Positions 19,840 to 58,060 of a stretch of DNA of 64,000 nucleotides are shown in pieces; the first letter of the stretch is position 1, and each line of letters opens with the position of its first letter. The notes under the pieces were generated by a model. That model saw only the letters and a program-made list of their open reading frames with translations, was not told the DNA's origin and did not search any database. The DNA comes from Syntrophomonas sp. (lineage in GTDB: Bacteria; Bacillota; Syntrophomonadia; Syntrophomonadales; Syntrophomonadaceae), in contig JAENYG010000016.1 in the NCBI GenBank assembly GCA_016841875.1, positions 1 through 64,000 on the forward strand. The letters run 5' to 3'. The position numbers and the translations under genes were made by a program.

Positions 19840-20490
19840 GGTAATGGGGACATTCCTTCAATCAAGGTACTAAAGGAAGGTGTGTCCCCTGACCTTAACC
19901 GGGACATTCCCAGGAAACCGGGGGACTGTCCCATCTGTGTTGCGCTAGTGACACCGGGGGACTGTCCCCTCTGTGTTGCGCTAGTGACACCGGGGGACTG
20001 TCCCCTCTGTTTCCTGTTTGGCGTCAGCCAAACCAAGCATGTCCCCTGACCTTAACCTTGCCTGTCAAGAGGATAGAGGAACTGCCTATTAATCTAACCA
20101 ACGACAGGATCTCTCTCCCAAAACCCAGGGGGTACAGAAACGCACCCCCTGGGTTTCATAATGGGGACATTCCTACCACCAGGAACAACAAGGGTAGGTG
20201 TGTCCCCTGACCTTAGCCGGGACATTCCTGCCACCAAGCTCCCCAAGGGTAGGTGTGTCCCCTGACCTTAGCCGGGACATTCCCAGGAAACCGGGGGACT
20301 GTCCCCTCTGTGTTGCGCCAGTGACACCGGGGGACTGTCCCCTCTGTTTCCTGTCCTGCGTCAGCCGGACCGAAAACTTCCTTTACCCAGGGACATTCCT
20401 TCAAACAGGGAACTCCAAGGAAGGTGTGTCCCTGTTCCTTGACCCGGTGTGTCCCCTGCCCTTAACCCTGTCCCCTCTGTTTCCTGAGAA
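19840..20490. repeat. Large REP-like mosaic with 36-bp tandem units
   Basis: Fills the gap between the chemoreceptor and the PucR gene. Modules: GGGGACATTCCT/AGGTGTGTCCCC hairpins, GGGGACTGTCCCC palindromes, a linker that reads GTGTTGCGCTAGTGACAC repeated with a 36-bp period (from 19937), and the GTTTGGC-GTCA-GCCAAAC hairpin. A strong terminator-like stem (20121-20156) interrupts it. No gene is seen. Confidence 0.88.
20121..20156. terminator. Strong hairpin, terminator-like
   Basis: A perfect 13-bp stem (AAACCCAGGGGGT with ACCCCCTGGGTTT, 10-base loop). It lies inside the repeat-filled gap between convergent genes and could serve both directions. Confidence 0.65.
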
Positions 20491-28764: not shown

Positions 28765-29042
28765 ACCCGGGGGAAACCGGGGGACTGTCCCCTCTGTTTC
28801 CCGTTTGGCGTCAGCCATATACCCAGGGACATTCCTTCAAACCAGAAACCCAAGGAAGGTGTGTCCCCTGTTCCTTAGCCCGAGACCCTCATACTCACTT
28901 CCCACCACCATGCGATCCACTCAGAAAACTCCTTGGTCTTACCCCGGTGTGTCCCTGTTCCTTGACCTGAGAATCCCATAGTCACTTCCCAGCGTCCACG
29001 AAATCCACTATGATAACTCCGTGGTCCTTACCCCGATGTATC
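28765..29042. repeat. REP-like mosaic between two small membrane protein genes
   Basis: Contains a GGAAACCGGGGGACTGTCCC module, a GGGACATTCCT/AGGTGTGTCCCC hairpin and two diverged copies of the CTCACTTCCCACC module also present at 2.1-2.3 kb. No gene is seen. Confidence 0.82.
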
Positions 29043-29044
29043 CC

Positions 29045-29251
29045 CTAACTTTCCTCTGAATTATTACTCTCCACCAATTTCTGCATCTCTGCTTCCATCC
29101 GCTTTAGACGGCGGTTCATCTTAACCAGCATGACGATACACACTATCGGAACTGCTATCAGCAGAGCCAACAACAAGAAGTTTATTAAGCTCCAGAGCAC
29201 CACATACATGTTACCTAATACCGGCGGACTACCTGCTGCATCCACTATCAT
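29045..29251 (-). CDS. Small single-helix membrane protein, unknown
   Basis: 68 residues. ATG start with GAGGTGA upstream. One hydrophobic helix (about 17-43) is followed by a charged coiled-coil-like stretch (KMNRRLKRMEAEMQKL). It shares the helix plus K-x-N-[KR]-[KR]-L pattern with the 28529-28744 protein, so the two may be distant paralogues duplicated together with the surrounding repeats. Function unknown. Confidence 0.6.
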   Translation of the reverse strand: MIVDAAGSPPVLGNMYVVLWSLINFLLLALLIAVPIVCIVMLVKMNRRLKRMEAEMQKLVESNNSEES

Positions 29252-29279
29252 ATCAATACTTCACCTCGTTTCCCGGATG

Positions 29280-29655
29280 TACTGGGGACATTCCTTTAAA
29301 CAAGGTACTTCAAGGAAGGTGTGTCCCCTGTCCTTACCCCGATGTATCCCCTGACCTTGACCCAGGCGTCAATTTTTTAAGCTGTCATTATTTTACATAT
29401 TTCTATACAAGATGGGGACATTCCTGCCTATACCCAGGGACATTCCTTTCAAATAAGGAATTCCAGGAAAGGTGTATCCCTGTTCCTTAGCCACTCCCAG
29501 CAGGTGTATCCCCTGACCTTAGCCGGGGGAAACTGGGGGACTGTCCCCTCCGTCCTGCGTCAGCGGGACCGGGGGACTGTCCCCTCTGTTTCCCGTTTGG
29601 CGTCAGCCAAACTAATAGGTCCCCTGCCCTTAACCCTGTCCCCTCTGTTTCTGTC
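29280..29655. repeat. REP-like mosaic
   Basis: Several GGGGACATTCCT/AGGTGTGTCCCC hairpins, the double GGGGACTGTCCCC module (with a GTCCTGCGTCAGCGGGAC linker) and the TTTGGC...GCCAAA hairpin. It separates a small membrane protein from the deacetylase gene. Confidence 0.88.
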
Positions 29656-32721: not shown

Positions 32722-33042
32722 TTATTCAGCAACCTCTACCAGGATTATCCCGCCATCAAATCCACCCCGCTCTCCCCTTTTTCCCAAACGCAAGGCTTCA
32801 AAATCCTCCAATGATATTCCTTTAGCCTGAACCAGAGCCAGAATAACCTCTTGAATATCAGCCAGTTCCTCTATATCACCGCTTTTCAGATATTCATCAA
32901 GCTCTTCCCCGAGCTTTTTATTAAGATAAGCGATATATTCTGCATCGTCATCAGCTACTCTTGTTATGGCTTTCTTGTTTGATTCTTCTATGATCTGTGG
33001 TATTAAATCACGGATTAGTTTATTGTATTTGATTGCAGACAT
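32722..33042 (-). CDS. Phosphoribosyl-ATP pyrophosphohydrolase-like / MazG-like protein
   Basis: 106 residues. YNKLIRDLIPQIIEESNKK at the start and EELDEYLKSGDIEELADIQEVI (E-E-x-x-E ... E-x-x-D metal-binding pattern) mark the COG4997-type all-alpha NTP pyrophosphatase family. It should hydrolyse an (d)NTP or related pyrophosphate. ATG with GGAGG upstream. It follows the DUF2357 nuclease gene by 41 bases on the same strand and so is probably the last gene of the restriction-like operon. Confidence 0.85.
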   Translation of the reverse strand: MSAIKYNKLIRDLIPQIIEESNKKAITRVADDDAEYIAYLNKKLGEELDEYLKSGDIEELADIQEVILALVQAKGISLEDFEALRLGKRGERGGFDGGIILVEVAE

Positions 33043-33083
33043 TACTTATTCCTCCGGTTTTAGTTTAACGGAAATACATTTTA

Positions 33084-35570
33084 TCAATCCTTTGATAACT
33101 TATTTAGGTATTCTATTACACTGGGATGTGACATATTAGTTTCGGTATTTCCTGTCTTTATAATAAATCCGGCTTTTCCGGCATAGCGAAGCCTACATTC
33201 GTTTTGCAGAACAAACTCCGTCCTGCCTTCCGGGTCATCTTTATCTATATATTTCGCTTTCCCTGGGGAAAGTCTAAAGCCAATTTCCATAGCCTTTAAA
33301 TCCTCATAAAGTCTCCATTCAGGTTCTGTTTCAAGAGACAGTTCCTCTATATTTTTAGCTCTCTCTAAACCCAATATTGTTGTCCATCTATGTAGAGTAA
33401 AACTACTCCCTTTTGTATTGTTAATTAAATGAGGTAGTTTTTTTATATCTTTAATATAATATAAAATCTCATGTTCATCGCTAGAACGTCGTGCTGTCCA
33501 AGGAGTATCTATCTTAGACCTTCTAATAATGTCGTAATCGGATATCTTGGCTTGATAAGCTACAGCACCTGGAGAACACAAGGGTTGCTGTAAATAGAAA
33601 ACAATGTCCCTTGTTACCGGTTGACGCCTCTGGGTTTTATAATAGGGCATGTAATACAATCCAGTTTCCTTTATCCATGCCCAATGTTCCGATGGATTAT
33701 TGCCCCGCAATGTAGCCACTAGCACCGGCTGCGCTGCTTTCTCCTTCCAATTTTGGGCTCGGTCATGGATATTATAGGCAATAGCTCGCTGAGATGTTGA
33801 AAACCCCCCCTGATTCAATACACCTCGCAGCCATTCTTGAACATACAAGGTATTGTCTGGCAGAAACGGGATCGCTCCTACTCCTATTCTATCCAACGCT
33901 TGCCATAGCTTACTATTATTAAACGAATCATTCTTATCATATTGCTGAGGAAAAACTGCCGCAGCTTGAATTACTGTTCTATAATGCACAGGCCCTTCTT
34001 CACTAATTTGCTTTTCAATAATTGCATCTCTGTAGCGATGCATAATATTTATAGCATCTTCTGGAGGACCTGCTGAATAATAACGTTTTTTATATTCCGG
34101 AGAGTTATCCACCCTATATTTTGCATCTAAGACCAGGTGTATCTTAGGCCAATTCTCATCAAGAAGACTAATTAACATATCTGGTTGTTGCGGGATAAGA
34201 ACATCTTCTCCTTGAAAACGCGGGTTATAGGTAACACTAATCTTGCGTCCTTCATTAGCCTCGAAAACTGCTTTTTGCTCACGTCCTTTTTGTAATAATA
34301 CTTGTAATCCATATTGCTGTATTGAAAAGATTTTATCAGGAGCGATTTCTTGCCCGGTTTCTTCAGCAATAATACGAAGTAAAGCTAAATAACACCAGTA
34401 TTCATATAATAAATTCAAATCCTTAACAGATAGTTTAAGAGGACCACCTTCAATTCGCAAACCCAACGATAATACTAAACATGATTTGTATGCTTCCCGA
34501 TAACCGGGAGCACCTAGAAGCTGAAGTGAAACAAAACCATATGGGACCTCACCCTTAGCCTCCATTATAGGTTCTAATTTAGTCAAATTGGCAATGCGAT
34601 ACTCTAAAGATTTTATTTCATTTAGAGCTTGTTTGCGCCTATCGGTTTGATGGCGAGCATCTTTATTCCAAATCTCAAACTCTTTACTATATAAACTGCT
34701 TAATTGTCGTAATATAGCTTTAAGCTGATTAGCTAACCAGCGGTGTTCCATGGTATCCAATGTTGACCGGGTGCGACATTCGGTAAGTTGCTGTTTTAGT
34801 TGTATATTGTTTCTTAGGGTTATAAAGTCACCCTTTCCATATCCGCAGCGTACTGCTGAACGTACCGAGCTATCTATTTTTTTTATTTTTTCGGCTCGCT
34901 GTACTACATTTTCCCTCTGCAAACTGCGAATTGGTCGTTTGGCAATATAACGTATAGCCTTATCTAATTCATCAATTATATTCCTTAGTAATAACAACCA
35001 TTCTAATTGGCCCGGTTTATTACCGGATATATTGCCCCACTGGTAAGTGGAACGCAAATACTCCATGGCTAAGCCAGTTAGAATATCTTGGACATCAGCT
35101 AATATTTTTTCATAATCAGATCTATAATCTAACTTACTAGGGAATACCTCTACTACAAAGATAAATTCCGGTTTGGCATCTACCCATACTATGAACTCAC
35201 TTAATCCCACTTGAGACTTAAAATTGATTGATCCATAGACAGTTTTACCTCCATTAACCTCATCCATATCCTTTAATAAAACTGGATCACGGTGTGTTAT
35301 TTTCACTTTTTCATTCCCATTTGATTGTAAGAAAAGTTTATATACCTTTTCTTCAAATAGTTTAGGTCCTCCCATGAAATCCGGAAATTTAGCTACCTCA
35401 CCTGGTACATCTCGCCATATCTCTACAAATTTTAAATCCTTTCTTAGTGGCCTAAGTTCCATATGAGCAAGCTCACCATTATCTTCAATATACGAAGTAT
35501 TATTAACTTGCCAACTTTTACTAAGTCGTAGGCTTATTTTATCTGTTTTAACCAATAATAGATCTTCCAT
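33084..35570 (-). CDS. McrC-like DUF2357 nuclease, PD-(D/E)XK
   Basis: 828 residues. A large N-terminal part resembles DUF2357 (COG1700), followed by a PD-(D/E)XK nuclease core: PDMLISLLDE at about 462-471, and IHLVLDAKYRVD with the D-x-K at about 478-480; GPPEDAINIMHRYRDAI follows, as is usual in this group. About 300 further C-terminal residues are of unknown fold. Start ATG 35570 lies six bases after the McrB-like gene stop, so translation is coupled. In such pairs the AAA+ partner moves on DNA and this protein cuts. The C-terminal extension is not standard McrC. Confidence 0.85.
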   Translation of the reverse strand: MEDLLLVKTDKISLRLSKSWQVNNTSYIEDNGELAHMELRPLRKDLKFVEIWRDVPGEVAKFPDFMGGPKLFEEKVYKLFLQSNGNEKVKITHRDPVLLKDMDEVNGGKTVYGSINFKSQVGLSEFIVWVDAKPEFIFVVEVFPSKLDYRSDYEKILADVQDILTGLAMEYLRSTYQWGNISGNKPGQLEWLLLLRNIIDELDKAIRYIAKRPIRSLQRENVVQRAEKIKKIDSSVRSAVRCGYGKGDFITLRNNIQLKQQLTECRTRSTLDTMEHRWLANQLKAILRQLSSLYSKEFEIWNKDARHQTDRRKQALNEIKSLEYRIANLTKLEPIMEAKGEVPYGFVSLQLLGAPGYREAYKSCLVLSLGLRIEGGPLKLSVKDLNLLYEYWCYLALLRIIAEETGQEIAPDKIFSIQQYGLQVLLQKGREQKAVFEANEGRKISVTYNPRFQGEDVLIPQQPDMLISLLDENWPKIHLVLDAKYRVDNSPEYKKRYYSAGPPEDAINIMHRYRDAIIEKQISEEGPVHYRTVIQAAAVFPQQYDKNDSFNNSKLWQALDRIGVGAIPFLPDNTLYVQEWLRGVLNQGGFSTSQRAIAYNIHDRAQNWKEKAAQPVLVATLRGNNPSEHWAWIKETGLYYMPYYKTQRRQPVTRDIVFYLQQPLCSPGAVAYQAKISDYDIIRRSKIDTPWTARRSSDEHEILYYIKDIKKLPHLINNTKGSSFTLHRWTTILGLERAKNIEELSLETEPEWRLYEDLKAMEIGFRLSPGKAKYIDKDDPEGRTEFVLQNECRLRYAGKAGFIIKTGNTETNMSHPSVIEYLNKLSKD

Positions 35571-35576
35571 ACCTAA

Positions 35577-37856
35577 TCACATCCAATAGGAAGTAAAGCC
35601 TTCTTTATTCAATCGTTCCCACATCAAGCATAACCTAGCTGCAGTTCTCGGAAATGCGCTATTACCATATGATGCTGAACGTCCAAGTTTTATCCATTCG
35701 TCTAACATCGCATTTGCATCATTTTCTTCTATCTTAGCCCGTAGACTAGCCCAGCCTAAAAGATCTAATAATACCTGTCTTACAGGAGCACTTCCTCCAA
35801 TAATTCGAGGTAATACTTTCATCTGAATAGCCAAATCTAATGGATCAACACTATCCCCGGCAGAAGTAACAAAGGAGTCTTTGCCCTCATCTGCATGTAA
35901 AACAAAAAGCGATATTTCATCCCGAGTACGATAAGCAACCTGCAACTGGGCCTGAATCAATATCTTGTTGATTTCCTCTAAGGCCTGAATAACCGTTTGT
36001 ATTTTTCCTCTATCATCATCACTAATATCTTGTAACATATTTAATCTTATAGCTCGGGGATACCAAGCATTTACCGGCCATTTAGATAATTCTTCTATTG
36101 TTATTGGTAAAGACTCCCAACTACTCAGATTAATATCAGAAAACTCAATGGTAAATGCCCTATCAAGCACCTTGCGGCTGAACCCATAAGCACTTTCATC
36201 CATATTAACTGTACCAACTATAGCAAAATTACCTGGAATCACTTGCTTGGCCCATTCCGTTTCCTCTTCATCTAACAACTTATTTATCAACACACCGCTA
36301 CAAAAGCCTCCATTAGCATCTGGATAGCGATTTTCGATTTGGCTTAATACTTCAGCAAAGTAATGCTCTACCCGAGCTAGGTTCATTTCATCAATAATAC
36401 CCACAAAATGTTTGTCGGGATTATTTGAAGCTTGATTAAACCATGTTAACAAGGAGCCAGGGCGAAACTCTCCCTGTAAATCACAATATCCCAAAACATC
36501 TGAGCTATCTGTCCAATCCGGTCTTACTGGTAAGAGACAACACTCTCCCCCGGTAGCTTCAGCCACCAGCTGAGGCAGTTTGGATTTGCCCGTACCTGAT
36601 ACCCCGGCCAAAATCACAAACGGCTTAGTTCTTAAGGCTGTTATGTAAGCAGCTATCTGCCAAGGCTCGAAAGAATAGCCTTTAGAGGAAATATTTTTTA
36701 TTAATTCTCTCACTCTTTGGTTCATAGAAATATTTTCAACCCTTAACCTATCAGGTGTGTCCTCCGGATCATTTGGGACTGTGCCATTTTGAGTCGAAGT
36801 CGAATTGATATAGGATGCGTATACTTGTAAAAGATTAGATATATCCCTACTAATGAATTCATCCGAAGGCAAATCATTCGTTTTATAATATTTGTAGGCA
36901 ATGGTACCATACTCATAGTCAGTTCCAAGTTGGGTGTTCGTATGAAGATTGACCTCATTATCTAATCTAAATCCAAATTTTTTAAGAATAGAAAAGTTCA
37001 TTCGTAAACGTTCCGATTTATTTCTTAAATTAGCTCGTGCTTGTGACCTTCGAGTTTCTGTATTTTCAATTGTATCTGTTACCCCTTGCATAAGGGTTAG
37101 ATAAATACCACTCATGTCTTCGCAAAATAGAAATACTACATATACTCCTTTTCTCGTAGTTGTTGTTTCACGTGAATCCAAAAATGCTAACCATGGAACA
37201 CTAGCCCAATTACCTTTTCCGACACTCCACTTAGTAATTATGTCTTGAGATGCTATTTTGCTTCTGTTTATGTTTTCCTCAATATTTGAAAAAATATCTC
37301 TAATAGATTGATTACCTCCAAAAGGTTCTTTCTGCCTTGTTAATACATATTGATTAAGTATTGTCTGTAAATGCTGATGTATATTCTTAATAGTTGGATA
37401 CGGATTTATAATTTCTAATCGATATTCAAACGGATTACCCGTATCATAAAAATCTATATAAGAAGCAATTTGATCGGGCACTATTATGTTTCCAGCCCCA
37501 CCAGCCTCTTGTTTTCTTTGTCTTTGTTCAACTACATAGTTATATGTCGTTGACAGTCTATCCTTGAGAACTTCCTTGAGACTAGAAGAAAACCTTATTT
37601 GCACAGTGTCTCCATCATACCCATTCCTGTCCATGTTAAGCAAATTTGCATCGTATATATCATTTTCCAAAACCAGTGTAACCGATTGTTTTTCTCCTGT
37701 TCCTAAACGCACTCCACCATTAGCTTGTTCAAAAAAACCAATAAATTCGTGAGGAACATGACTACCATCCCTAAAAATAGACCAATCCACTTTTTTTCTT
37801 CCAATTAAATCAGGTATTCCCTCTAGTTTGGACCAACTTCGCACTTCTAAAGCCAT
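35577..37856 (-). CDS. McrB-like AAA+ NTPase with MrcB N-terminal (DUF3578) domain
   Basis: 759 residues. The N-terminal region (about 1-200) is unassigned. A DUF3578/MrcB_N-like domain follows (about 200-345; WASVPWLAFLD, GVYVVFLFCEDMSGIYLTLMQG). The McrB-type AAA+ domain has Walker A GVSGTGKSK (about 417), Walker B VGIIDEMNLARVEHY (about 480) and the McrB signature GTVNMDESAYGFSRK. ATG with GGAGGG upstream. It belongs to the McrBC type IV restriction class, which cuts modified DNA using GTP or ATP. It lies between an SRA-like protein and the nuclease. Confidence 0.9.
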   Translation of the reverse strand: MALEVRSWSKLEGIPDLIGRKKVDWSIFRDGSHVPHEFIGFFEQANGGVRLGTGEKQSVTLVLENDIYDANLLNMDRNGYDGDTVQIRFSSSLKEVLKDRLSTTYNYVVEQRQRKQEAGGAGNIIVPDQIASYIDFYDTGNPFEYRLEIINPYPTIKNIHQHLQTILNQYVLTRQKEPFGGNQSIRDIFSNIEENINRSKIASQDIITKWSVGKGNWASVPWLAFLDSRETTTTRKGVYVVFLFCEDMSGIYLTLMQGVTDTIENTETRRSQARANLRNKSERLRMNFSILKKFGFRLDNEVNLHTNTQLGTDYEYGTIAYKYYKTNDLPSDEFISRDISNLLQVYASYINSTSTQNGTVPNDPEDTPDRLRVENISMNQRVRELIKNISSKGYSFEPWQIAAYITALRTKPFVILAGVSGTGKSKLPQLVAEATGGECCLLPVRPDWTDSSDVLGYCDLQGEFRPGSLLTWFNQASNNPDKHFVGIIDEMNLARVEHYFAEVLSQIENRYPDANGGFCSGVLINKLLDEEETEWAKQVIPGNFAIVGTVNMDESAYGFSRKVLDRAFTIEFSDINLSSWESLPITIEELSKWPVNAWYPRAIRLNMLQDISDDDRGKIQTVIQALEEINKILIQAQLQVAYRTRDEISLFVLHADEGKDSFVTSAGDSVDPLDLAIQMKVLPRIIGGSAPVRQVLLDLLGWASLRAKIEENDANAMLDEWIKLGRSASYGNSAFPRTAARLCLMWERLNKEGFTSYWM

Positions 37857-38025
37857 CGTATTCCCTCCAACAGTACAAATAACAACCTTACTACATGTAT
37901 TAATCTATATGTTAAATTTGAAATCATCCAAACGGACTACTTATGGCACTTGCGGTTTGCCCTCTCAATCAACGCTTTTCCTATATAAGTAATGCATTAT
38001 CATAGCAAACAATTCTCGATAGTCA

Positions 38026-38442
38026 TTATCCGGTTATCTTCAACGGAAAAATCCATACATTACGCATCTGCCCTTCAGTGTCAGGTTGCCTATCCTTATA
38101 TGGCCGTCCGACTAATTCCACCCGGCCTTGGAAAGTATATTTTTTAGGTTTAAAGACCTCAAATAAGTATACTCTTACACCATTACTTGCTGATTGGGCT
38201 AAGGTTTTATTCTGCTTATAATATAGACTTTGATCACCCGTTAAACCCATGCCTGTATAATGGAAGATATCTCCCATCCAACGGTCCTCATATACATTAC
38301 CACGTGTGTGGTCCGATATAATAACTAAACTATTAGTCTTAAGAGATCTTCTCATTCCACCTTGAGGACTAACTTTAAATATATCAACTAAGCCTTTATT
38401 ATCAATAACATCTCCGGGCTGCAATCCATTTAAAAATGCCAA
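38026..38442 (-). CDS. SRA-like (ScoMcrA-type) modified-DNA reader protein, stand-alone
   Basis: 138 residues from TTG 38442 with AGGGGA upstream. The sequence is recognisable as the domain usually found in front of HNH nucleases of the ScoMcrA type: GGMRRSLKTNSLVIIS, YEDRWMGDIFHYTGMGLTGD, then VYLFEVFKP and GRVELVGRPYKDRQPD. In those proteins it reads modified bases. Here it is alone and first in the operon with an McrB-like motor and a nuclease, so it may be the recognition subunit. No catalytic residues are evident. Assignment rests on my recollection of family motifs. Confidence 0.7.
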   Translation of the reverse strand: MAFLNGLQPGDVIDNKGLVDIFKVSPQGGMRRSLKTNSLVIISDHTRGNVYEDRWMGDIFHYTGMGLTGDQSLYYKQNKTLAQSASNGVRVYLFEVFKPKKYTFQGRVELVGRPYKDRQPDTEGQMRNVWIFPLKITG

Positions 38443-38654: not shown

Positions 38655-38770
38655 AAATAAGGTCAGGGGACACACCCGATCAAGGGACATGTACATTAGT
38701 TTGGCTAACGCCAAACGGGAAACAGAGGGGACAGTCCCCCGGTTTCCTATAGGCAGGAATGTCCTCATTA
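38655..38770. repeat. REP-like repeat, reversed orientation
   Basis: AAGGTCAGGGGACACACC, the TTTGGC...GCCAAA hairpin, and GGGGACAGTCCCC with GGAATGTCC. The modules are those of the 1-30 kb region but inverted. This fills the gap between the SRA-like gene and the XRE gene. Confidence 0.85.
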
Positions 38771-38786: not shown

Positions 38787-39503
38787 TCATGTGCTTGAGT
38801 GTCTGGATAATGATTGTATGGAAGCAGCATTTATATTGATATATTTAACGGTGGGTAAGGGCATGAATTTGCCGGTCTGCAGTACTCCTTTTACTATCCC
38901 GATGACTCTTTTGATCTGGCTGCTCTGCAGCTTTAATTCCCGGGCTTCTTTCTTGAACTGCAGGTATTCTTTGAATTTTTCTATGGTGTAGCTAGTCTCT
39001 TGTCTGCCCTCCTCGGGTATATATTCTTTGTTTTCCACACAGACCAGGTCTTCTGTTTCCGGACTGCCCCCTTTCTTTAACAGGTACATGTTCATGCTTT
39101 CTTTATTACCGGTGGCGATAACGTAGTCTGCTTCTTTAGCGGCTACTTCCGGGAAAGGCAAGAGCCGCTGTCCTTTGAGATCCATGCCGTTCAATCCTTC
39201 GAATCTGAGCCGGGGGATGGTGGGCAGGTATCTGGCATCAGCCAGTATGCCGGCCAGGGAGGCCAGGTGGTTTTCGATCCCAACCACTGACGGTACCTGC
39301 CCCAGGTGCGGGTACAGACTGCTTTTCAGGGCCTGTTCCAGTGCCTGCAGGTGATGCAGGGGGATGCGTTTCCTCCCGGTCTCATAGTTGGCCAGGGTGG
39401 CCCGGGGTATGTTTATCATCTCCCCCAGCTTCTTCTGGGTCAGCTTCCGCTGCTTCCTTACTTTTTTTATCCTCAAAGCGATATCGCTATATATTTTTTC
39501 CAT
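38787..39503 (-). CDS. XRE regulator with degenerate S24-like C-terminal region
   Basis: 238 residues. Clear N-terminal helix-turn-helix (LTQKKLGEMINIPRATLANYETGRKRIP). A middle stretch (VAAKEADYVIATGNKESMNM) resembles the S24/LexA ADYVL.V.GDSM motif but lacks the serine context, so it is probably a non-cleaving repressor; a charged C-terminal tail follows. ATG with GGAGG upstream. It lies upstream of the McrBC-like operon on the same strand, separated by repeats, and could control it. Codons here are more GC-rich than in the restriction genes, which points to different histories. Confidence 0.8.
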   Translation of the reverse strand: MEKIYSDIALRIKKVRKQRKLTQKKLGEMINIPRATLANYETGRKRIPLHHLQALEQALKSSLYPHLGQVPSVVGIENHLASLAGILADARYLPTIPRLRFEGLNGMDLKGQRLLPFPEVAAKEADYVIATGNKESMNMYLLKKGGSPETEDLVCVENKEYIPEEGRQETSYTIEKFKEYLQFKKEARELKLQSSQIKRVIGIVKGVLQTGKFMPLPTVKYININAASIQSLSRHSST

Positions 39504-39754: not shown

Positions 39755-39958
39755 CAGGAGACATGTTCCTTAGTTTGGCTGACGCCAAACGGGAAACAGA
39801 GGTGACAGTCCCCCGGTTTCCCGGCTAAGGTCAGGGGACACACCTACCCTACCCTGATGTGGGCAAGGAACGGGGACACACCTATCGGCTAAGGTCAGGG
39901 GACACACCTGCTGGGAGAACTTTGATGCAGGAATGTCCCCATCACGGGTCCCCATTAC
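39755..39958. repeat. REP-like repeat cluster, reversed orientation
   Basis: AAGGTCAGGAGACATG, the TTTGGC...GCCAAA-type hairpin with GACGCCAAAC, a GACAGTCCCC module and three AAGGTCAGGGGACACACC-type units ending GGAATGTCCCC. No gene is seen. From 39958 to 40227 I see no further element. Confidence 0.85.
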
Positions 39959-40227
39959 GGCCTAATCAGCCTGATAATGACATTTATTTGGTGGGCTGTC
40001 GATATATTTGTTATTTTATGGCAGGACTGAAATGGGCATTAGTCCCCTTTTTTTCGGCAACCAATGCGGGACTATGCGCTTGGCCGCCCGTGACATTATT
40101 CACACATTTCGACGTAAAATTCCTTGGATGTTTTGGTATAATATGGTTTAAGAATTAATGTCCTTAATGATGAGGCTAAGGTGAATTTGGCGAGTGAGTT
40201 ACAGATTCTTTATCTGGAGGTGGCTTT

Positions 40228-40596
40228 ATGTTGGATACCAGTGAATCCGTTAACCGGGCCAATGGCGGGATGCATTATGCGGATGCAGTTTACCGCAAAC
40301 ATGCACCAACTGCTAATTATGTAAGATATATAGTAAAATTGATAAACCAGAACCTGTTTGATGGCGAAACATCTCTCATAACTTATCCCATAAAAAATAA
40401 GCTTCGTATTAACTACAAGGGAGAGTACTTTTTACTGCTCGGCCTGGGTTGGGTGGAAAACTTTCGAACAATGAGGGCTACTGCCCTGGAAGGATATATC
40501 ATACAGCAGCTAAAGCAGAAAGGTATCAGGTTTGACAGAAGTTCTTTCTACTATCGCACCTGGATTCTGGAAGAGAACAAACAGCTGATCAGGTAG
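40228..40596 (+). CDS. Hypothetical protein, 122 residues
   Basis: Not recognised. ATG start with TGGAGGTGG upstream and ordinary codon use, so probably real. Soluble, basic, no signal peptide or membrane helix; aromatic-rich middle part (YKGEYFLLLGLGWVENF). It is flanked on both sides by repeat clusters. The C-terminal half could be a small DNA-binding or nuclease-inhibitor fold, but nothing in the sequence proves it. Confidence 0.65.
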   Translation: MLDTSESVNRANGGMHYADAVYRKHAPTANYVRYIVKLINQNLFDGETSLITYPIKNKLRINYKGEYFLLLGLGWVENFRTMRATALEGYIIQQLKQKGIRFDRSSFYYRTWILEENKQLIR

Positions 40597-40599
40597 ATT

Positions 40600-41065
40600 A
40601 GACTTGGGGACGGGTGCCCACCTCCGGGTCAATGTCATGGTTTCTGTGAGCTAAGGCCAGGGGCCACACCTGAGCTAGGACTAAGGTGATAGCTTAGTGA
40701 ATTAAAAGAAGGTGGGACATTATTGTGAGATTCTCTGGTCAAGGAACAGGGACACACCTTCCGCTAAGGTCAGGGGACACACCTACTTAGGGTTCCGTGT
40801 TGTAGGAATGTCCCCATTACATGTGGCTGACGCCAAACGGGAAACAGAGGGGACAGTCCCCCGGTTTTCCCGGCTAAGGAACAGGGACACACCTGAGCTA
40901 GGACTAAGATGATAGCTTAGTGAATTAAAAGAAGGTGGGGCATTATTGTGAGATTCTCTGGTCAAGGAACAGGGACACACCTTCCTTGGAGTTCCTTGTC
41001 TGAAGGAATGTCCCGGCTAGGGTTAGGGGACACACCTGCTCCGCAGGAATGTCCCCATTATAGTT
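40600..41065. repeat. REP-like mosaic with two copies of a 100-bp element
   Basis: An element containing AGCTTAGTGAATTAAAAGAA and ATTATTGTGAGATTCTCTGG occurs twice, offset by 223 bp (40663-40763 and 40886-40986). Its reverse complement occurs twice at 57.64-58.02 kb. Between and around are GGGGACAGTCCCC and GGGGACACACCT modules. No gene is seen. Confidence 0.88.
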
Positions 41066-57394: not shown

Positions 57395-58060
57395 GCTCTA
57401 TACGGGGACATTCCTATATTCAGGGACATTCCTGCAACTAAGTTCTCCCGGCAGGTGTGTCCCTGTTCCTTAGCTGCAGGTGTGTCCCCTGTCCTTGACC
57501 GGGGAAACCGGGGGACTGTCACCTCTGTCCTGCGTCAGCGGGACCGGGGGACTGTCCCCTCTGTTTCCCGTTTGGCGTCAGCCAAACTAATATACCCAGG
57601 GACATTCCTGCAACCAAGTTCTCCCAGCAGGTGTGTCCCTGTTCCTTGACCAGAGAATGTCACAATAATGCCCCACCTTCTTTTAATTCACTAAGCTATC
57701 ACCTTAGTCCTTAGCGGAAGGTGTGTCCCCTGTCCTTGACTACTTCAGGAAGGTGTGTCCCTGTCCTTGACCGGGGAAACCGGGGGACTGTCACCTCTGT
57801 CCTGCGTCAGCGGGACCGGGGGACTGTCCCCTCTGTTTCCCGTTTGGCGTCAGCCAAACTAATATACCCAGGGACATTCCTGCAACCAAGTTCTCCCAGC
57901 AGGTGTGTCCCTGTTCCTTGACCAGAGAATGTCACAATAATGCCCCACCTTCTTTTAATTCACTAAGCTATCACCTTAGTCCTTAGCGGAAGGTGTGTCC
58001 CTGTTCCTTGACCAGAGAATCTCACAATAATTGCCCCACCTTCTTTCTTGAAGGAAATAG
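57395..58060. repeat. REP-like array with a 240-bp direct duplication
   Basis: Two nearly identical copies of about 240 bp, 57491-57734 and 57763-58006 (offset 272). Each holds two GGGGACTGTC palindromes, the TTTGGC...GCCAAA hairpin, a GGGACATTCCT/AGGTGTGTCCC hairpin and the AATTCACTAAGCT element that is inverted at 40.7-41.0 kb. ORFs within it are repeat translations. No gene is seen. Confidence 0.9.

Follow-up and report, generated by a model that had tools for sequence, protein, structure and literature searches.

A variable McrBC-containing segment between stand-alone SRA and MazG-like genes at a putative type IV defence site of Syntrophomonas

Genes at the locus

Four open reading frames were located on the minus strand of the window, i.e. 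the whole stretch of 64,000 nucleotides of Syntrophomonas sp. DNA that was analysed. As described in the initial annotation, they are separated by gaps of 169, 6 and 41 bp. The domain identities proposed there were upheld by Pfam for the McrB and McrC products, by relatives and predicted fold for the SRA protein, and by a residue pattern and a sub-threshold Pfam match for the MazG-like product. The genes may be co-transcribed; a scan of the locus for promoters and terminators gave no signal clearly above that of shuffled sequences. An XRE-type regulator gene lies upstream (38787..39503, minus strand, Pfam HTH_3). According to blastn, it is present at the site in genomes G000 and G020 and absent from genome G021; it is probably outside the unit. 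Short dispersed intergenic repeats were observed in the window at about 20157-20446, 28772-29616, 38664-38748, 39763-41061 and 57423-58046, and one copy contains the palindrome GGGGACTGTCCCC. They occur in sister species too, and some of them flank the defence site.

The SRA gene (38442-38026, minus strand) starts with TTG and encodes a protein of 138 aa. No match was obtained with any model of Pfam, NCBIfam or PADLOC, or with PDB sequences. The relatives retrieved by sequence search were mostly SRA-HNH nucleases or fusions. An AlphaFold model built with 25 sequences reached a pLDDT of 90.5 and a pTM of 0.84. Its top Foldseek match was the SRA region of ScoMcrA (E 2.3e-6), followed by SUVH, MspJI and UHRF1, and the 17 PDB matches with E ≤ 0.001 came from these same proteins. 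The VIA-align Z values were 14.5 for ScoMcrA, 13.3 for SUVH5, 11.9 for TagI and 10.7 for residues 803-941 of SauUSI. As modelled, the protein has an SRA fold. The stretches YED, YTGMG and NKTL are conserved, and binding of a flipped modified cytosine is predicted.

The dN/dS value of the SRA gene between the window and G021 was 0.055, with a dS of 0.81; the dS of flanking genes was 0.66-0.72 (n=2). As judged from this pair of sequences, the gene is under strong purifying selection. Such a low value between two species shows that the open reading frame is neither a chance one nor a pseudogene. Together with a dS near that of the flanking genes, it points to a stand-alone reader that is functional and has been inherited along with the surrounding DNA. 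An HNH remnant was sought in the protein and in the DNA downstream, both in the window and in G021, and none was found. A scan of genome contigs with the SRA protein gave two loci only, the phage collection contained no SRA relatives, and a class-level search around G158 yielded no additional SRA genome.

The second gene (37856-35577, minus strand) encodes a McrB-type protein of 759 aa. It matched MrcB_N with an E value of 1.5e-48 in Pfam, as anticipated by the initial annotation, and AAA_5 as well. The motifs GVSGTGKS, IIDEMN and NMD are present. The last one is part of GTVNMDESAY and represents an NxD variant, the canonical NxxD motif being absent; GTVNMD is common to all McrB relatives that are paired with this McrC type. 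Proteins of the NxD kind are treated as a branch of McrB, of which no member had been characterised by 2024 (PMC11090510). Among PDB sequences, E. coli McrB was the nearest one for the reader and the GTPase parts alike. Residues 1-165 (window 37362-37856), which precede MrcB_N, matched no family and may form a further DNA-binding domain.

Only 6 bp further on, the third gene (35570-33084, minus strand) encodes a McrC-type protein of 828 aa with DUF2357 (E 4.7e-55) and PDDEXK_7 (E 1.3e-43) domains in Pfam and the nuclease motif LVLDAK. No match was found among PDB sequences. As this McrC belongs to the DUF2357/PDDEXK_7 type, the McrBC profile PF10117 found no match in the window's own genome. 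McrB accompanies McrC in nearly all of the 27 relatives.

The fourth gene (33042-32722, minus strand) encodes a putative MazG-like, all-alpha NTP pyrophosphohydrolase of 106 aa. Its match to PRA-PH in Pfam was weak (E 0.008; 17 bits, the cut-off being 21.3). The protein carries the ExxE...ExxD metal-binding pattern of all-alpha NTP pyrophosphohydrolases (E47-E50, E59-D62), which is kept in four species, and three other species have an orthologue at this site.

Exchange of the segment between SRA and MazG

Among named relatives of the locus, Syntrophomonas sp. BL5_bin.17 (G021, also L021) is the nearest; it belongs to the window's genus. In this genome, SRA (87% nucleotide identity) and MazG (79%) have kept their chromosomal position, and the flanks on both sides are syntenic. 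In blastn, the homology between both sequences ends at 38036 and restarts at 33055. This is an exact replacement, from the SRA stop to the MazG start, and 33056..38035 is thus delimited as an exchangeable cargo segment. Instead of McrBC, G021 has a 14-kb cassette with genes for a TerB-like protein, PbeA, PbeC, a small protein, GmrSD, DndE, DndD, DndC, DndB and an HNH protein; the DndB/C/D/E, Pbe, GmrSD and HNH genes lie between SRA and MazG at L039:1551-15850. Since SRA and MazG bracket Dnd, Pbe and GmrSD genes in this sister species, McrBC is regarded as swapped cargo.

The site was also inspected in two other species. In G020, it contains the XRE gene, type I RM genes, a Septu-like ATPase and its partner, a GNAT-like gene, a homologue of the HNH gene that has no Pfam match, and MazG, and SRA is missing. 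In G018, a helicase of 759 aa follows MazG almost directly, and SRA is missing as well. McrC was sought in G020 and G021 and was not found. Across the four species, MazG is therefore constant (4/4) and SRA is present in 2/4.

Neighbours of the SRA, McrC and MazG genes in other bacteria

The survey of McrC comprised 27 other loci of this type within the phylum. SRA was found beside McrBC in none of them, and MazG in three: about 42 nt upstream in L074, divergent in L085, and downstream with one gene between in L095. In a further locus (L090), a Nudix gene overlaps McrC. In the 299-genome sample used for MazG, both McrC and MazG were present in four further genomes (G068, G113, G164 and G274) and were neighbours in two of them. 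The proportion of random genes expected at most 3 kb from McrBC was roughly estimated at 0.4% (11 kb of 3 Mb). The window was excluded from the adjacency count because it had been picked for its gene order. The genome samples behind these counts are partial, the neighbours were called with home-made profiles, and the MazG matches come from one query.

A separate SRA gene in a McrBC operon was found in one environmental contig of the viral collection (L166:2229-7409). It encodes McrB, McrC (PF10117, 3.7e-92) and an SRA protein whose gene overlaps McrC by 4 nt; a second protein behind it has a Pfam SRA domain (1.5e-8). The first SRA protein extends C-terminally past its SRA domain. The McrBC type is a different one, but the contig shows that a McrBC operon can include SRA as a separate gene. 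The description of the window's SRA as a separate protein lacking HNH is upheld by this independent operon, the missing HNH remnant and the constraint on the gene. At L136:8986-12623, on a plasmid of Mesobacillus foraminis, an SRA domain forms one protein with a Septu PtuA-type ATPase; a PtuB-type gene adjoins, and BREX genes are close by. This fusion protein, an 'AAA family ATPase' by name, had at first been suspected to be McrB.

These data bear on two readings of the locus. A fixed four-gene system, in which McrBC cannot do without SRA as its reader and MazG is built in as a subunit that acts on nucleotides during defence, would agree with the common strand and the short gaps, with the McrB-McrC-SRA operon of L166 and with the MazG-McrBC neighbours in L074, L085 and L095. 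It is nevertheless improbable, as the sister species has SRA and MazG without McrBC and SRA is lacking at all 27 other McrC loci. The initial proposal was not borne out in this respect. A literature search, mostly outside subscription papers, gave no description of the SRA-McrB-McrC-MazG gene order. In another reading, the SRA-only protein arose by truncation of an SRA-HNH nuclease and turned into a blocker or protector, covering modified sites or competing with nucleases. HNH is present in most relatives, some SRA-only relatives resemble broken SRA-HNH genes (L025), and the SRA gene persists beside different nucleases. We consider this very improbable in view of the missing HNH remnant, of a clean SRA end that is common to two species and strongly constrained, and of the SRA proteins in the McrBC operon of L166 and the PtuA fusion of L136.

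Elsewhere, SRA-HNH genes habitually have a pyrophosphohydrolase gene of the Nudix (MutT-like) kind as neighbour. In the viral collection, 20 of 32 SRA(-HNH) loci (L141-L172) have a same-strand Nudix gene no more than 60 nt upstream, overlapping or abutting, and one more locus is a fusion (L167). When near-identical SRA sequences were removed, the pairing was seen in 11 of 22, the fusion counted. Eight chromosomal loci also have Nudix upstream of SRA(-HNH), seven within 30 nt and one at 144 nt (L023, L024, L029-L032, L034 and L035), and three SRA-HNH-Nudix fusions were found (L017-L019).

As for MazG, the gene adjoins an SF2 helicase in 15 of the 25 loci read outside the genus, a count that includes the near duplicates L189 and L190. 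The pairing was noted at L180, L182-L185, L188-L190, L196, L202, L203 and L208-L210, at several of them with a HIT-family gene between. The helicases that were scanned mostly have a PLD domain. PADLOC type IV models were matched by two of the helicases beside MazG and by the helicase of G018.

MutT homologues beside SauUSI homologues have been mentioned in passing (PMC7641849), and MazG has been listed among unvalidated predicted defence domains (PMC13092281). Members of both the MazG and the Nudix superfamilies have been reported to act on modified dNTPs (PMC3855555, PMC4491611, PMC7152754). The link of NTP pyrophosphohydrolases to modification-dependent restriction, as implied by the initial annotation, is supported by its recurrence in the form of Nudix with SRA-HNH, MazG with PLD-helicases, and MazG or Nudix with McrBC; the role suggested there for the enzyme is conjectural. 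From this recurrence and the enzymes for modified dNTPs, we infer that MazG itself may be a nucleotide sanitiser. In the literature search, which mostly left aside subscription papers, the coupling with a pyrophosphohydrolase was nowhere found described as a rule.

Interpretation and comparison with known systems

The explanation that we favour, with a probability of about one half, is a type IV defence hotspot at which the nuclease genes are exchangeable cargo and an SRA reader and a MazG nucleotide sanitiser are resident. The effector would be the NxD-branch McrBC pair, as exchangeable cargo between two older in-line residents. MrcB_N would read modified cytosine, the AAA+ GTPase would translocate, and the DUF2357-PD-(D/E)XK subunit would cut. 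For the stand-alone SRA protein, the most likely function is to bind modified bases that are flipped out and, acting in trans, to provide a further reader to whichever nuclease is installed, possibly within a physical complex. MazG most likely removes modified dNTPs, which would keep nucleotides set free from cleaved phage DNA, or synthesised by the phage, out of the host DNA. Once incorporated, they would make that DNA a target. The whole set may protect the cell against phages. The fact that the residents stay while the cutting genes change suggests that the destruction of modified phage DNA and the clean-up of modified nucleotides go together.

The main rival of this explanation takes SRA and MazG for bystanders at a hotspot, old residents with unrelated jobs, next to an ordinary two-gene type IV system formed by McrBC. 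It is a realistic possibility. The change of cargo while both residents stay is in line with it, and a second reader is not needed, because McrB has its own reader domain. Moreover, 169 bp separate the SRA gene from mcrB, SRA does not occur beside this McrBC type at the 27 loci elsewhere, and it is missing at two of the four Syntrophomonas sites. Against bystanders, every cargo in the same slot is related to defence, and much of it to modification. In addition, both SRA and MazG recur in other bacteria as neighbours or fusion partners of modification-dependent nucleases. An extension of the hotspot reading goes further. It depicts the fixed SRA reader, acting in trans, and the sanitiser as a plug-in socket which serves whichever nuclease cassette is installed, McrBC or Dnd/Pbe/GmrSD, and holds that modification-dependent restriction routinely needs a dedicated MazG or Nudix pyrophosphohydrolase to bar modified nucleotides from host DNA. 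We regard this extension as rather doubtful.

If the hotspot reading is right, type IV restriction has an extra layer, in which a co-encoded MazG or Nudix enzyme removes the nucleotides of destroyed phage DNA. Such modified nucleotides would endanger the host, whose own DNA they could mark as a target. It would also mean that a modified-base reader can be a separate and strongly constrained protein, kept while the adjoining nuclease changes. For both the sanitiser and the separate reader, small constructs in laboratory strains offer a test.

The locus was compared with known systems. The SRA fold is shared with the SRA-HNH and SBD-SRA-HNH nucleases TagI and ScoMcrA, the latter being the best structural match. 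These enzymes carry a C-terminal HNH domain, whereas the SRA domain of the window stands alone. With E. coli McrBC, the locus shares the MrcB_N/DUF3578 reader joined to an AAA+ GTPase and a separate McrC with DUF2357 and a PD-(D/E)XK nuclease. It differs by the NxD motif in place of NxxD, by the large DUF2357/PDDEXK_7 McrC and by its additional SRA and MazG neighbours. The NxD motif and the DUF2357 McrC are found in NxD-branch systems, including the CoCoNuTs (Bell et al. 2024, PMC11090510). CoCoNuTs are defined by long coiled coils and also have RNA-targeting domains; the main text of that paper is silent on SRA and MazG. From these systems the window differs by the MrcB_N reader of its McrB and by a McrC that retains the nuclease domain; Pfam showed no RNA domain. 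The Dnd/Pbe phosphorothioate systems fill the slot between SRA and MazG in G021 and are absent from the cassette of the window. Finally, as to the SauUSI-type PLD-helicase enzymes, an SRA-like domain is present in SauUSI, MutT homologues have been mentioned beside its homologues, and some PLD-helicases beside MazG match type IV models of PADLOC. In contrast to this type, the window has no helicase, and McrBC provides the motor and the nuclease.
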